Below are positions 2,826 to 9,856 of a DNA stretch of 64,000 nt, one piece after another; positions within the stretch are counted from its first letter, which is position 1; each line of letters begins with the position of its first letter. The translations under genes were made by a program, and so were the position numbers. The stretch covers positions 1 to 64,000 of the forward strand of contig CALGAW010000059.1 in the NCBI GenBank assembly GCA_937959115.1. Reading direction: 5' to 3'. Source of the stretch: an uncultured Saprospiraceae bacterium. GTDB taxonomy: Bacteria > Bacteroidota > Bacteroidia > Chitinophagales > Saprospiraceae. The notes under the pieces were generated by a model. The model was not told the DNA's origin, did not search any database, and was given only the letters and a program-made list of their open reading frames with translations.

Positions 2826-4151
2826 ATGCGTCGTAGATTTATATTCCTTTATTTATCAATAATAATCCTTACTCTTCAAAATTGCGTTATGCGTCACACC
2901 CACGATTCCATTGCTCCTGGTATCTGGAGAGCGACCCTCAAGCTAGAAGGTTCTTCAGTGAAAGAGAAGTTTAAAGCGAAAGACCGTTCAGAAAATGTAA
3001 TTGACGAAATCACAGAAGGCGAACTCCCTTTTAATTTTGAAGTGAAGTACGAAGCGGATAAAAAAACCCTTTACTTTGAATTTATCAATGGCGACGAACG
3101 AATCAGAGTAGACGATATCGTGATCGGACGCAACAGAAGAACAGGAACAGATACCTTGTCTATCCGATTTCCACACTATCAGTCACGCATTGAAGCAATT
3201 TATGAGGAAAATGTGATGGAAGGAGAATGGATTGTCGATTCCAAAGAAAATTACAGCATTCCCTTTGTCGCGTTTTACGGTAAAGATTATCGATTTTCTA
3301 CCTTACGGAAAAAACCCACTCTAGACTTGAATGGGAAATGGGAAGTACAGTTTAGCCCGAATACAGAAGACGAATTCCCTGCAATCGGCGAGTTTAAAGC
3401 CAATGAAAACCACGTAACAGGTACCTTCCTAACTGAAACAGGCGATTTCAGATTTTTAGAAGGTACCGTACAAGCAAACAAACTCTACCTTTCGTGTTTT
3501 GATGGTGCTCACGCGTTCTTGTATGAAGCAAAAATCCTAGAAGACCAATCAATGATCGGAGCTTTTTGGTCAGGTAATCATTATAAAACAACCTGGACAG
3601 CTAAGAAAAACCCAAATGTGCAACTAGCAGATCCTGAAACCATGACTTATCTAAAACCTGGTTTTGAATCCTTTGATTTCAGCTTTCCTGATAAAAACGG
3701 AACAATGATCTCGCTAAAGGATGATCGCTACAAAGGCAAGGTAAAACTAGTACAAATACTAGGAACTTGGTGCCCAAACTGTGCCGACGAAACACAATTC
3801 CTATCAGAATATTACAATACCCTAAAAGGAGAGAAAGACGTAGAAATCATCGGACTTGCCTTTGAACGATACAAAGAAAAAGAAAAGGCTTTTAACGCAA
3901 TTGGAAACTTCAAGAAACGATTTGACGTAAACTATGAAATCCTGTTGGCCAATGGAAGTAGCTCAAAGAAAGAGGCAGCAGAAGTACTGCCAATGCTAAA
4001 TAAGATCATTTCTTACCCAACATTGATTTTTATTGATAAAAACAACAAAGTAAGAAAGATACATACGGGTTTTTCAGGTCCGGCCACCAGTAAATATGAG
4101 GGTTTCAAAAAAGATTTTGCTTCCTTTATAAATCAGTTAAAGAACGAATAG
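2826..4151 (+). CDS. TlpA-like thioredoxin-fold lipoprotein
   Basis: A lipoprotein signal ends at LQNC. About 260 residues of beta-rich sequence follow, and then a C-terminal thioredoxin-like domain from about residue 280. The redox motif is WCPNC (W315 to C319), followed by a late cis-proline-like SYPTLIFID segment. TlpA/ResA-type proteins reduce disulfides in the cell envelope; in Bacteroidota many have a long N-terminal domain of unknown role, as here. The N-terminal region looks like repeated DUF4369-type beta units, but this is uncertain. The gene stands alone, 94 nt before the TIR-like/SDR fusion gene. Confidence 0.85.
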   Translation: MRRRFIFLYLSIIILTLQNCVMRHTHDSIAPGIWRATLKLEGSSVKEKFKAKDRSENVIDEITEGELPFNFEVKYEADKKTLYFEFINGDERIRVDDIVIGRNRRTGTDTLSIRFPHYQSRIEAIYEENVMEGEWIVDSKENYSIPFVAFYGKDYRFSTLRKKPTLDLNGKWEVQFSPNTEDEFPAIGEFKANENHVTGTFLTETGDFRFLEGTVQANKLYLSCFDGAHAFLYEAKILEDQSMIGAFWSGNHYKTTWTAKKNPNVQLADPETMTYLKPGFESFDFSFPDKNGTMISLKDDRYKGKVKLVQILGTWCPNCADETQFLSEYYNTLKGEKDVEIIGLAFERYKEKEKAFNAIGNFKKRFDVNYEILLANGSSSKKEAAEVLPMLNKIISYPTLIFIDKNNKVRKIHTGFSGPATSKYEGFKKDFASFINQLKNE

Positions 4152-4245: not shown

Positions 4246-6144
4246 ATGAGTAAAGAACACATCTTTCTGACATATTGTACAGAAAACAAGCCAGTTATTG
4301 ATCAACTAGTAAACGATCTTACCCCATATGGAATCACGTTCACCCATGATCTTCGAAAAGAAGACGAAATGGATGCAACGACTCGAGTAATGAAAGAACA
4401 GAAGGATCCCGTTTTCTTTTTTGTAAGTAATGACTTTTTATGCTCTAGTGAAGGAATGCATAAAATCCAATCTTTTATAAAAGATACAAAGATAAATCTT
4501 AAACCAGTCCTAATTGGACAATTAGCAGAAGATCAAGCATATGCAGAATATTGGGAACAAGAATACGCTAATTTAAGAGCTAGAAAAGATAATATTCCTC
4601 CATCCGAAAAAGATACATACAACTGGCGCGTTTTTATCGTCCGCAAAATAAGGGATAATGCTGCTAAAACTTCTGCACAACTCAAAGAACTGACCTACCT
4701 GCCCCTAGAAACACTGCAAGCATCTAATTATCATGAAATATTTGATGCCCTAGGAATAGAAGTTCGCGAAACCCAACCAATCGTGCAACCAGTTGCTGAA
4801 GTTGCACCTGCCGATCCAGATGTCATCCAACCGAGCACAATAACGTCAGAAGTAGTAGAAGCAACATCAACCATTAAAGATGATATCATTAAAGTTGGTG
4901 GCAGTATCGCTGCTGGAGGAGTCGTTGGAAGTGTTGTCAACAAATTGACTAATCCTGTAGAAGAGGTAGCAAATAATCTTGTGGCTGATGCACCAGTATT
5001 GGAAGTTCCTTCAATCGAAACGCCAGTGGTGGAAACACCAAGTATAAAAATTCAAGAAATTAAAGCTCCTGTTGAAGAAACTCCTGTTGTAGAAGCTCCA
5101 ATTGTGGAAACGTCCGTTATGGAAACACCTGTTGTGGAAGCACCTATTTTGGAAACTCCTGTTGAAGAAGCTCCAATTGTGGAAGCACCTATCGAAGAAA
5201 CACCTTTAGTAGAAACGGAGACTTCAACATCCATTAATGATTTCTTAGATGAAGACGAGGATGAAGATGAGGATGAGGATTTCCACATGGTAAAAGTAAA
5301 ATCCGCCAGACAGGAAGAAGGCGCTTCACTAGATAAAGCCAGATCTGGTAAACGACAACGAAAAGTCTCAAAATGGAAAGGGACAACTGCTCTGATCACT
5401 GGAGCAACTTCTGGGATTGGATTGGCGACAGCCAAACGGTTTGCAAAAAAAGGATTTGACTTAGTCATTACAGGTAGAAGACAACATCGCCTAGAAGAAA
5501 TCAAGCAAAACATTGAAAATAAATATGGTGTTAATGTTGAAATGATTGAATTTGATGTTCAAAATAAAGAACAAGTTGACAAGGCCATTAAAACATTGAA
5601 ATCCAAGAAACTATCGGTTGATCTATTGATCAATAACGCTGGCCTAGCCAAAGGACTTGCTCCTTTTCATGAATCTTCTGTTGAGCATTGGGAAACCATG
5701 ATTGACACCAACGTCAAAGGTCTATTGTACGTTACGCGCGCAATCGCTCCATTGATGGTGAAGCAAGGAAAGGGACATATCATTAACATCGGATCTATTG
5801 CTGGGCGAGAAGTCTATCCAAAAGGCGCTGTATACTGTGCTACCAAACATGCCGTTGATGCAATCACAAAGTCATTGCGCATGGATCTTATGCCGCATGG
5901 CATAAAAGTGAGTTCAGTCTCTCCTGGTCATGTAGAGACAGAGTTTTCCATTGTTCGATTTGATGGTGACAACAAGAAAGCAGATAACATGTACAAAGGA
6001 TTTGAACCACTAAAAGCGGATGATGTAGCGAGAACAGTATTATTTATTGCGACACAACCCGCAGGAGTAAATATCCAGGACGTTTTAATGTTCAGCAGCG
6101 ATCAAGCTTCTGCAACACACATTAATCGCAAAAACGGTAAATAA
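4246..6144 (+). CDS. TIR/SEFIR-like domain fused to a short-chain dehydrogenase
   Basis: Residues 5 to about 140 resemble a TIR/SEFIR fold: a first strand HIFLTYCTENK, a helix, a YGI turn, then VFFFVSNDFL. A Gly/Ala-rich stretch at 214-234 follows, then a repetitive linker of VE(T/A)P units (about 250-325) and an acidic run at 335-345. Residues 378-632 are a complete classical SDR: TGATSGIG (385-392), NNAG (463-466), N489, S517, Y530 and K534. This part resembles YdfG-type NADP-dependent dehydrogenases. In my alignment the usual TIR catalytic Glu falls on Lys73, so NADase activity is doubtful. The stop codon abuts the pyrophosphatase start, so the two are probably co-translated. The domain combination looks unusual; its function is not known to me. 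Confidence 0.85.
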   Translation: MSKEHIFLTYCTENKPVIDQLVNDLTPYGITFTHDLRKEDEMDATTRVMKEQKDPVFFFVSNDFLCSSEGMHKIQSFIKDTKINLKPVLIGQLAEDQAYAEYWEQEYANLRARKDNIPPSEKDTYNWRVFIVRKIRDNAAKTSAQLKELTYLPLETLQASNYHEIFDALGIEVRETQPIVQPVAEVAPADPDVIQPSTITSEVVEATSTIKDDIIKVGGSIAAGGVVGSVVNKLTNPVEEVANNLVADAPVLEVPSIETPVVETPSIKIQEIKAPVEETPVVEAPIVETSVMETPVVEAPILETPVEEAPIVEAPIEETPLVETETSTSINDFLDEDEDEDEDEDFHMVKVKSARQEEGASLDKARSGKRQRKVSKWKGTTALITGATSGIGLATAKRFAKKGFDLVITGRRQHRLEEIKQNIENKYGVNVEMIEFDVQNKEQVDKAIKTLKSKKLSVDLLINNAGLAKGLAPFHESSVEHWETMIDTNVKGLLYVTRAIAPLMVKQGKGHIINIGSIAGREVYPKGAVYCATKHAVDAITKSLRMDLMPHGIKVSSVSPGHVETEFSIVRFDGDNKKADNMYKGFEPLKADDVARTVLFIATQPAGVNIQDVLMFSSDQASATHINRKNGK

Positions 6145-6801
6145 ATGCAACATATGGTAAAGACTTCCCTTTTAAAGGCGAGTCTCTTGTTGATCTTGGT
6201 TGGATTGCTTACGAACTGTAAGCAGTCTGCCCCAAATGACCTTGATTATTCTGCCTTGCCTACCTATTCCAATTTTAAGGCGAAGACACTAAATGCTGTC
6301 ATTGAGATACCAGCAGGCACAAGCAAAAAATACGAGTATCAAGCATCAAACAATCAATTTGTAATTGACAAAAAGGATGGAAAAGACCGTATTGTGAATT
6401 ACCTACCCTATCCTGGTAACTATGGATATATTCCCTCCACCTATCTCGATCCTAAAAAAGGAGGAGATGGTGACGCCATAGATATTCTTGTCCTGAGCGA
6501 ACACCAACCTCAAGGCACTGTAATTGAAGTAAAGCCAATTGCTGTTTTCCACATGCATGACAACAAGGAGCGGGACTCGAAAGTAATTGCCGTTCCAGTC
6601 GATGAAGCGCTGCAAACCTTTAAGGTAAATGATTTCAAGGAATTGAATACCGATTTTCTAAAAGCTAAAATTGCAATTGAATACTGGTTTACAAACTACA
6701 AGGGTCCAGATAGCTTAATCACTGAAATACACTGGCAAGATGAGATTGCCGCCTATCGAGAAATCAATAAGTGGCTGGTAGAAAAGATTGGGGAAGAATA
6801 A
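6145..6801 (+). CDS. Inorganic pyrophosphatase, family I, lipoprotein form
   Basis: The sequence has the fold markers of soluble family I pyrophosphatases, which hydrolyse PPi to phosphate: YPGNYGYIPST and the metal-binding aspartates of D108-G-D110-A-I-D113. The usual Pro/Glu of this signature is Ala. It differs from cytoplasmic enzymes in a lipoprotein signal ending at C25 (LLTNC), which points to a membrane-anchored periplasmic enzyme. Either the Met at 6145 or the one at 6154 could start it; the first directly follows the upstream stop codon. A link to the fused dehydrogenase upstream is suggested only by this tight coupling. Confidence 0.9.
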   Translation: MQHMVKTSLLKASLLLILVGLLTNCKQSAPNDLDYSALPTYSNFKAKTLNAVIEIPAGTSKKYEYQASNNQFVIDKKDGKDRIVNYLPYPGNYGYIPSTYLDPKKGGDGDAIDILVLSEHQPQGTVIEVKPIAVFHMHDNKERDSKVIAVPVDEALQTFKVNDFKELNTDFLKAKIAIEYWFTNYKGPDSLITEIHWQDEIAAYREINKWLVEKIGEE

Positions 6802-6955: not shown

Positions 6956-7303
6956 ATGGCGATTATTATTACCGATGAATGTATTAATTGTGGAGCGTGT
7001 GAGCCCGAGTGCCCAAACACTGCAATATACGAGGGTGGAATTGAGTGGAAAATGACGGATGGTACTGACCTTAAAGGAACAGTGATTGTCCCAGGAGGAA
7101 ACAGCTACGAGGCTGAAGCTGAACAGGAACCTGTAGACATGGATGTCTATTACATTGTCCCTGACAAGTGTACTGAGTGTGTTGGTTTTCACGAAGAACC
7201 CCAATGTGCAGCTGTCTGCCCAGTAGATTGTTGCGTACCAGATGTAGACCATGAGGAAACTGAAGAGCGATTGCTGGAGAAAAAGGCATTTATGCATCTT
7301 TAA
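6956..7303 (+). CDS. 2[4Fe-4S] ferredoxin, Alvin/YfhL type
   Basis: The first cluster motif is C9-x2-C12-x2-C15-x3-C19-P. The second is the spaced type CTEC-x8-C-x3-CP, typical of Alvin/YfhL-like ferredoxins. The 115-residue length fits the longer Bacteroidota versions, which have an acidic insert between the clusters. It would serve as a low-potential electron carrier in the cytoplasm. It has its own promoter-like sequence and no obvious enzyme partner nearby. Confidence 0.93.
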
Positions 7304-7356: not shown

Positions 7357-8697
7357 GTGAATCAGATCAGCAAACAACTTGTTCAATCCATTTCTGCGAA
7401 GCCATTGGCTTTGTTTCGTATTGTATTTGGTGTTTTAATGGCGTGGGAGTTAATCGACTATCGGTTTTTTCGCTCAGAAATCAACGACTTTTTCATCAAC
7501 CCGACTTTTCACTTTTCTTATCAAGGGATGGGCTGGATTCCAACCTTATCTGCTACTGCGTTTAGCCTATTCTACTGGCTACTAATTGGCTTATTCATCT
7601 TACTAAGTATCGGATTGCTGTATCGCCTCGTGAGTGTCTTGTGTTTCCTAGGATGGTCTTGGCTGTTTTTCATGGAACGGACCATCTATTTTAACCATTG
7701 GTATTTGGCTATGCTGATCTTGTTTCTCCTCGTATTTCTCCCTGCCAATCAAGCTCTTTCAGTCGATGCTAAACGTAGTCAACAAAGCGATGATCCAACA
7801 ATACCCTTCTGGTGTACAGCATCCCTTGCGCTGTTAACAGGCATCGTATACTTCTTTTCGGGAACTGCAAAACTAAATCCTGATTGGCTGATCGGCCAAC
7901 CGTTAATATTGGTTTTCCAGCAGGAATTAGGTCATTTGCCTCAACTCGTTCAGCAGCTCCTAGGAGATCGGTCTGTCGGTTTATTTGTGAGCTATCTCAC
8001 TATTATTCTGGAGCTGTGTGCCCTCCCCTTGCTGATTTGGCAACGTTCCAGAATGGGCATGGTGTTTCTGTTGATTGGGTTCAATCTGTTAAACTTATTG
8101 TTCTTTCCAGTAGGAATCTTCCCGTTACTAATGATTGCTTTGACATTATTGTGGATTCCAGTTGGGGAATCACTCGATTCACCGGCTCAATCATCAACCG
8201 AATCCCTAGGTATACCTCCTTGGATTAAACTTACTTTTACGTTCTTCTTCGTCCTTCAGTTTCTACTACCCGCTCGCAGGCTAATGTACAGTGGTAGCCA
8301 GCTTTGGGCGGAAGAGGGATTGCTTTTTTCCTGGCCAATGTTTACTACTTACAAAGGCGGCGATGCTATGTATTTAATCGATGCTGGTGACGATGCACCA
8401 TTAGACACGATCCGTCCACAGCACTTTGATTTAACTGGCGGACAGTATACTCGTTTGGTTAAGAATCCGGATTGCCTATTGCAGTATGCGCATCATTTGG
8501 GTAGGCTGTATGCGGAGAAGGGGTTCACGAATGTCTCGGTGTATTGTGATTCCTGGGTGCATTTGAACGGAAAGCCTTTGCAACGGTTTGTGCATCCAAA
8601 TGTGGACCTAATGCAGGAGCAGCGGCGGCTGATCACCCCTTACTGGTGGGTATTGCCCTTAGAGGGCACTGTGCGCGCTGGGCAAATTCGGGAATAG
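7357..8697 (+). CDS. HTTM / vitamin K-dependent gamma-carboxylase-like membrane protein
   Basis: The N-terminal half has several transmembrane helices in the HTTM arrangement (ALFRIVFGVLMAWE; ERTIYFNHWYLAML). The conserved FSGTAKLNPDWL motif is present. In human gamma-glutamyl carboxylase the equivalent Lys is the proposed active-site base; here it is K172. The soluble C-terminal part (about 310-446) is typical of the family. The start is GTG; there is no in-frame ATG upstream. Bacterial homologues rarely have a known substrate and none is suggested by the neighbours. Confidence 0.85.
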   Translation: MNQISKQLVQSISAKPLALFRIVFGVLMAWELIDYRFFRSEINDFFINPTFHFSYQGMGWIPTLSATAFSLFYWLLIGLFILLSIGLLYRLVSVLCFLGWSWLFFMERTIYFNHWYLAMLILFLLVFLPANQALSVDAKRSQQSDDPTIPFWCTASLALLTGIVYFFSGTAKLNPDWLIGQPLILVFQQELGHLPQLVQQLLGDRSVGLFVSYLTIILELCALPLLIWQRSRMGMVFLLIGFNLLNLLFFPVGIFPLLMIALTLLWIPVGESLDSPAQSSTESLGIPPWIKLTFTFFFVLQFLLPARRLMYSGSQLWAEEGLLFSWPMFTTYKGGDAMYLIDAGDDAPLDTIRPQHFDLTGGQYTRLVKNPDCLLQYAHHLGRLYAEKGFTNVSVYCDSWVHLNGKPLQRFVHPNVDLMQEQRRLITPYWWVLPLEGTVRAGQIRE

Positions 8698-8722: not shown

Positions 8723-9856
8723 CTATTCGTTATTAAACTCCTTGAAACTGTAGCTTGAACTTCTCCCACCAGCAGTATCTTTTTCAAGAATATTTTTCTG
8801 AATCAGGTCTTGAATATCTCGTAAAGCGCTATCTCTAGAGGTTTTAGTAATTTTCGCCCATTTAACTGTGGTTAATTTTCCATCAAAACCATCTAGGAGT
8901 TTATTCAAGACTTTTGTTTGTCTTTTATTAAGCGTAACATCTTTTAATTTTATCCAAAAATTGTGTTTTTCTAGAACTTTTTGAAGTGTTTCTTCAGAAC
9001 TTTCTAACGCATTTAGCAAGCAGGTTAAAAACCAGACGAGCCAATCCGTTATGTCTAGTAATCCTTTCTGGCAGTTTTCAAGTACTTTGTAATACCCTTT
9101 ACGCTCTATTCTTATCTGACTAGACATTGAATAGAACCGTTCGGGAATACCATCTGCTCTTGTTAATAATAAATCTGTTAATGCTCTTGCAATTCTTCCA
9201 TTACCATCTTCAAATGGATGGATTGTAATAAACCAAAAATGGGCAATCCCTGCTTTAATGACTGGATCTAGGCGAATCTCATGGTTTAACCAATCTATTA
9301 GTAATCTCATTTCTGCGGGTACGATGTGGGCTGGAGGTGCTTCAAAGTGTACCTTTTCTCTTCCTATGCCTCCTGAAACCACTTGCATTCTTCCTTTCAA
9401 ATCTTTTCGCCATTCACCAACTAAGATACTGAATCGCCCGCTTCTTCCTGAAGGAAACAAGGATGAGTGCCACCCAAACAATCGATCGACTGTAATTGGC
9501 CCATTCGCATATTGGGTTGCATCCAAAAGCATATCAACTACCCCATCAACATTCCTATCCGAGTGAACTAATCCACTTATTTCAAGCCCTAACCTCTTTG
9601 CTAAGGAGGAGCGTACTTGTTCAGCACTTAATAATTCACCTTCTATTTCACTTGTCTTAAGAATATCTTGAACCAATGTCTTAAAAGAGGCTTCTACTTG
9701 CATTTCAAACCCTAGACTTTCCATTCTGCCTAATATTTTACCTTGCAGGTGGCGTACACTTCCTAATAGTTTGACGATCAGCTCATCGTCCCAAGTAAAT
9801 GTGGGCCAATTTGCTCTTTGATGAATGTATAAAGGCATTCCTCGCTCTTTTTGCAT
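8723..9856 (-). CDS. Fic family protein, class II, with C-terminal helix-turn-helix
   Basis: Residues 213-224 carry the complete Fic motif HPFEDGNGRIAR, so the protein should transfer AMP (or another nucleotide) to a target hydroxyl. Residues 68-73 (TSEIEG) fit the (S/T)xxxE(G/N) inhibitory helix placed before the Fic core, which makes this a class II, self-inhibited enzyme. The N-terminus (YIHQRANWP) matches the DUF4172 extension, and the last 70 residues look like a winged helix. A GAGGTG ribosome-binding site 7 nt before the Met at 9856 supports this start over the internal Met at 9838. No antitoxin gene is adjacent, as expected for class II. Confidence 0.92.
   Translation of the reverse strand: MQKERGMPLYIHQRANWPTFTWDDELIVKLLGSVRHLQGKILGRMESLGFEMQVEASFKTLVQDILKTSEIEGELLSAEQVRSSLAKRLGLEISGLVHSDRNVDGVVDMLLDATQYANGPITVDRLFGWHSSLFPSGRSGRFSILVGEWRKDLKGRMQVVSGGIGREKVHFEAPPAHIVPAEMRLLIDWLNHEIRLDPVIKAGIAHFWFITIHPFEDGNGRIARALTDLLLTRADGIPERFYSMSSQIRIERKGYYKVLENCQKGLLDITDWLVWFLTCLLNALESSEETLQKVLEKHNFWIKLKDVTLNKRQTKVLNKLLDGFDGKLTTVKWAKITKTSRDSALRDIQDLIQKNILEKDTAGGRSSSYSFKEFNNE

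Follow-up and report, generated by a model that had tools for sequence, protein, structure and literature searches.

The window analyzed here, a 64,000-nucleotide stretch of DNA from an uncultured Saprospiraceae bacterium, carries a single open reading frame of 632 aa (4246..6144, + strand) in which a TIR-like domain is joined to a short-chain dehydrogenase (SDR). The TIR-like domain (aa 1–168, roughly 170 residues; 4246..4749) includes an invariant Trp103 (codon 4552-4554) and is followed by a low-complexity, Pro/acid-rich linker (aa 169–370; 4750..5355), in which a repetitive VETP/EAPI stretch leads to a (DE)n run from aa 335 and a basic stretch at the end. A search for a transmembrane segment in this linker gave a best 19-residue hydropathy of 1.4, which is too weak. 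The remainder is a classical, YdfG-like SDR (aa 376–623; 5371..6114). A ResA/TlpA-like redoxin lipoprotein (441 aa; 2826..4151) is encoded 94 bp upstream of the fused gene, and a lipoprotein inorganic pyrophosphatase (218 aa; 6145..6801; Pfam E 4.6e-35, lipobox-like LLTNC) lies downstream, all on the + strand. As an earlier note on this DNA had observed, the ATG of the pyrophosphatase directly abuts the TAA of the fused gene. That note had also read the frame as a fusion of a TIR-like domain, a repetitive linker, and a complete SDR, which the open frame, Pfam and profile matches, AlphaFold2 models, and homologues all bear out; it had overlooked the tetratricopeptide repeat (TPR) block of relatives and the conserved upstream neighbor. 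A chance or mis-called open frame was rejected, as homologues of the fusion occur in many genera. Elsewhere in the window are a lipoprotein-like frame with two CAP (cysteine-rich secretory) domains (609-1763), which has a homologue at the same place in a congener (G002), a small ferredoxin-like frame (6956-7303) directly before a vitamin K-dependent gamma-carboxylase-like protein (7357-8697; HTTM domain, 184 bits; VKGC lumenal domain, 115 bits), and a Fic/DOC-family protein with an N-terminal DUF4172 (8723-9856).

When the N-terminus was scanned alone, Pfam TIR_2 matched aa 6–92 of the window protein (E 5.5e-5) with 24.1 bits, short of the 28 bits that the curated cut-off requires, and the TIR identity is only suggestive from the window sequence by itself. 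The same model matched 12 of 14 homologous N-termini (best E 2.5e-7), one of which (L025) exceeded the cut-off, and a family profile searched against the Protein Data Bank reached the MyD88 TIR domain at 3.5e-5. An AlphaFold2 model of the window N-terminus, built from 33 sequences (pLDDT 82.7, pTM 0.71), displays the strand-helix order of a TIR domain followed by a long helical extension. Its best Foldseek matches in the Protein Data Bank are the TIR domains of RPS4/RRS1, RUN1, TLR15, and TcpB (E 5.5e-4 to about 1e-2, TM about 0.5), in line with the earlier proposal that this part is TIR-like. At the family level, a flavodoxin-like beta-alpha fold thus coincides with a TIR-specific sequence match, and the TIR-like assignment is supported by the TIR_2 and MyD88 matches together with the predicted fold.

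The catalytic glutamate that defines TIR NADases, located in the helix that follows strand C (SxxCxxE), is absent from the window protein, which has Lys73 in that column (codon 4462-4464). The glutamate is missing from 64 of 65 SDR-fused TIR domains and present in one, whereas 18 of 19 homologous TIR domains of non-SDR architecture retain it; on this alignment, the loss is specific to the SDR fusions. Most SDR-fused TIR domains have lost the BB-loop Asp as well. The nearest non-SDR relatives are TIR-TPR, TIR-NTPase-like-WD40, TIR-EAD11, and Schlafen-TIR proteins. Like the fusion, TIR-TPR proteins (Group 6 of a published TIR survey, PMC7075850; here L082, L083, and L086) begin with a TIR domain followed by TPRs, but those found here stop after the TPRs and keep the glutamate, while the fusion lacks it and continues into a C-terminal SDR. 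The TIR-NTPase-WD40 and TIR-EAD conflict-system proteins (L084, L091) share a homologous TIR domain, including its C-terminal YxxxW helix extension, yet they keep the glutamate, have a scattered distribution, and contain no SDR. The SARM1 and Thoeris ThsB NADases resemble the SDR-fused TIR in fold class but depend on the glutamate that it lacks.

The identity of the C-terminal half as an SDR is certain, with Pfam adh_short covering aa 381–568 (E 1.6e-60). Its catalytic residues are intact, as the earlier note had stated (N489, S517, Y530, and K534, with a glycine motif from T385), and Arg411 of a GRR sequence suggests NADP(H) as the cofactor. All 48 fused or split proteins display the classical SDR signature (TGxxxGIG, NNAG, and the N-S-Y-K tetrad), with the catalytic Asn, Ser, Tyr, and Lys, the glycine motif, and the NADP-type Arg invariant in 48/48. 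The nearest solved structure is 3asu/3asv (205 bits), which we take to be E. coli YdfG, followed by yeast YMR226C and sulfoacetaldehyde reductase types. YdfG (NF007829) is likewise the best NCBIfam SDR model, although its score of 238 bits falls below the equivalog cut-off of 411 bits, as do the scores of the stand-alone relatives. Because the best-matching model remains under its cut-off, a 3-hydroxy-acid/serine-type substrate is only inferred. The fused SDR thus matches YdfG-type enzymes (NADP-dependent 3-hydroxy acid/serine dehydrogenases) best along its entire length and, like them, has every catalytic residue and the NADP-type GRR; it differs in its sub-cut-off score and in carrying an N-terminal TIR-linker(-TPR) extension, which measures 370 aa in the window and 550–800 aa in relatives.

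Among 120 genomes of the GTDB family holding Saprospiraceae, Lewinella, and Phaeodactylibacter, 102 encode an orthologous SDR at E <1e-60, in almost all cases as a single copy. By an approximate count from open-frame lengths, about 65 of these 102 are fused, one is split (G065), and about 35 are stand-alone proteins of 255–290 aa. The TIR profile was found in 74/120 genomes and 69/112 genera of the family, in 59/299 genomes of the order (all but three within the same family), and in 9/395 genomes of the phylum. The fusion, which the earlier note had allowed might be absent from all relatives, is instead kept in some 60 genera. Carriers of the N-terminal extension include type strains, and named examples are Phaeodactylibacter xiamenensis KD52, P. 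luteus, Lewinella cohaerens DSM 23179, and Flavilitoribacter nigricans DSM 23189. Relatives of 717–1159 aa have a TIR domain, a long, disordered acidic linker, six TPR-like hairpins with many Pfam TPR matches, a coiled helix, and the SDR. In the L. cohaerens protein as modeled by AlphaFold2, these correspond to a TIR domain at residues 1–190, disorder at 207–300, six TPR-like helix hairpins at 302–511, and a helix at 536–566 before the SDR. In two species (G065 and G335), TIR-TPR proteins of 562 or 546 aa and the SDR are encoded by adjacent genes 8–11 bp apart (L135:4405-6908; L136:1042-3497). Only these two were counted as genuine splits; G076 (L137) was set aside, as its only interruption is an in-frame TAA within the TPR block. 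In the linker, otherwise disordered, a conserved DIPGIxLL-like motif lies about 30–60 aa past the TIR domain of several relatives (L132, L113, L116, and others). Among 44 fused proteins, 17 contain the pattern [ILV]PG[ILV]x[ILV], compared with 0.3 expected on shuffling; the window protein lacks it, and the motif was therefore left out of the interpretation.

Across the family, 39 of 44 fused loci and 14 of 15 stand-alone ones have the redoxin lipoprotein gene as their immediate upstream neighbor, in the same orientation; the gap to the next gene is often −8 to 40 bp. The N-terminal arm is therefore a feature that one and the same locus may have or lack; where the fusion is present, the arm sits between redoxin and SDR. 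G065 and G335 have the order redoxin, TIR-TPR, and SDR as three genes. Further upstream, many loci encode a conserved, roughly 176-aa protein and a GltP/DctA-like symporter. The former lies 5′ of the redoxin gene (e.g., L028:8961-9491), at position −2 in about 32 loci, and has no Pfam or NCBIfam match.

In a tree of the SDR domains, members of the family fall on one side and those of other families of the order on the other (SH-aLRT 99), the exception being a second, outside-type copy in G063. Fused and stand-alone labels are clustered on this tree far beyond shuffled labels, with at least three changes between the two states within the family. Given these changes, the fusion could have arisen either by a single gain followed by losses or by several gains. 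TIR and SDR distances are correlated (Mantel r 0.785, p 0.001; permutation maximum 0.35), as expected if the two halves travelled together. Mean identity is 39% for the TIR domain versus 63% for the SDR. In close species pairs, the dN/dS of the TIR domain is about 0.01–0.05, similar to that of the SDR, and that of the linker and TPR region is higher than either. These ratios indicate that the TIR domain, like the SDR, is under purifying selection and is not decaying, despite the loss of its glutamate.

Several alternative accounts of the locus were weighed. A profile of the TPR block matched 47 of 48 fused proteins, with the window protein as the sole exception; it has no such block at the linker position and hence does not combine TIR, TPRs, and SDR in one frame, although its TIR domain, SDR, and upstream neighbor mark it as orthologous to the TIR-TPR-SDR family. 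Both congeners of the window species carry the block, and with a repetitive linker in the window, one might suspect that the assembly collapsed there and that the real protein resembles its relatives. As seen in relatives, however, the TPR block lacks near-identical repetition, and the reading frame runs unbroken across the join, which makes such a collapse quite unlikely. The adjacency of the pyrophosphatase invites the view that it forms one functional unit with the TIR-SDR protein, to which the earlier note had described it as coupled. The two frames abut in the window, and 11 bp separates them in congener G002, but no other fused locus has the pyrophosphatase next to it; six other genomes encode homologues on different contigs, and congener G001 has none. 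The neighborhood comparison led us to reject the partnership: the adjacency is specific to the genus, the neighbor is incidental, and a joint unit is extremely improbable. The earlier note had further pointed to TIR domains that use NAD, and an active NADase or cyclase sharing dinucleotides with the SDR could be envisaged, considering that the TIR fold is present in the fused protein and that TIR domains of other proteins are able to cleave NAD (PMC8494770). Against this, the activity of characterized TIR domains requires the catalytic glutamate (PMC10022894; PMC7075850), which is conserved in >70% of all TIR domains (PMC7075850) and is missing here along with, in most cases, the BB-loop Asp. 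With the glutamate lost from nearly all fused TIR domains and kept by their non-SDR relatives, NAD cleavage is unlikely; the NADase reading was rejected on this column of the alignment, and an active NADase or cyclase is very improbable.

We consider it reasonably probable that the protein is a metabolic, housekeeping, NADP(H)-dependent SDR of the YdfG group with an acquired N-terminal assembly arm of catalytically dead TIR domain, acidic linker, and TPRs; the fusion is probably a scaffold rather than an NAD-signaling system. A single-copy, vertically inherited YdfG-group dehydrogenase, acting on 3-hydroxy-acid/serine-type substrates, would have gained the TIR-linker-TPR module at its N-terminus. 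Solved SDR relatives are tetramers, and a tetrameric SDR would display four flexible arms. The TIR domains may then associate among themselves or with a partner, and a client may be bound by the TPRs, such that the arm multimerizes or docks and the enzyme becomes clustered or localized. The window species would have lost the TPR part of the arm, leaving the TIR domain and a shortened flexible linker. Consistent with an assembly arm, TIR-TPR still adjoins the SDR in the two species where the gene is split. The SDR does not need the arm, however, since about one-third of the family does without it and the window species does without its TPR part. A related but rather unlikely account is a signal-responsive effector, in which the SDR would be activated or inactivated by clustering once TIR-TPR has sensed a signal or partner, with a resulting change in a signaling metabolite or in the NADP(H)/NAD(P)+ pool. 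The TPR, NTPase-like/WD40, EAD11, and Schlafen-type partners of the nearest TIR relatives are typical of regulated conflict systems (PMC7159879), and the TIR domain evolves fast relative to the SDR. Yet the fusion is inherited vertically in single copy, its synteny with the redoxin gene is stable, stand-alone SDR orthologues occupy the same locus, and PADLOC gave no useful match: its anti-phage models returned none for the window protein and, among relatives, one marginal 16-bit match in the TPR region of one protein.

Returning to the assembly-arm reading, one may tentatively entertain a broader version, in which a catalytically dead, immune-derived TIR domain serves family-wide as a polymerization or docking module for an oxidoreductase of central metabolism and forms signal-controlled enzyme clusters outside immunity. 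Other residues might serve catalysis in some TIR-like enzymes, which counts against regarding the domain as dead. TIR domains have been studied almost exclusively as immune signaling or NADase modules; here, one without the glutamate is kept under strong purifying selection on a metabolic enzyme across some 60 genera. The locus also supplies natural controls, with the arm present, absent, encoded as a separate gene, or devoid of TPRs, and the role of a non-enzymatic bacterial TIR domain therefore becomes directly testable in cultivated strains. TIR-TPR proteins and SDRs are each known, and the novelty is their combination; consistent with the earlier note, which knew of no described system of this kind, no description of a TIR-SDR combination was found in the open-access literature searched.

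Other arrangements were seen among the TIR homologues. In five proteins (L087, L088, L089, L093, and L097), a homologous, Glu-bearing TIR domain is followed by a hydrophobic, membrane-span-like segment and then by a C-terminal domain with no Pfam match. In another (L101:1446-2999), which is lipoprotein-like and contains repeats, the TIR domain is C-terminal and is preceded by a hydrophobic segment.
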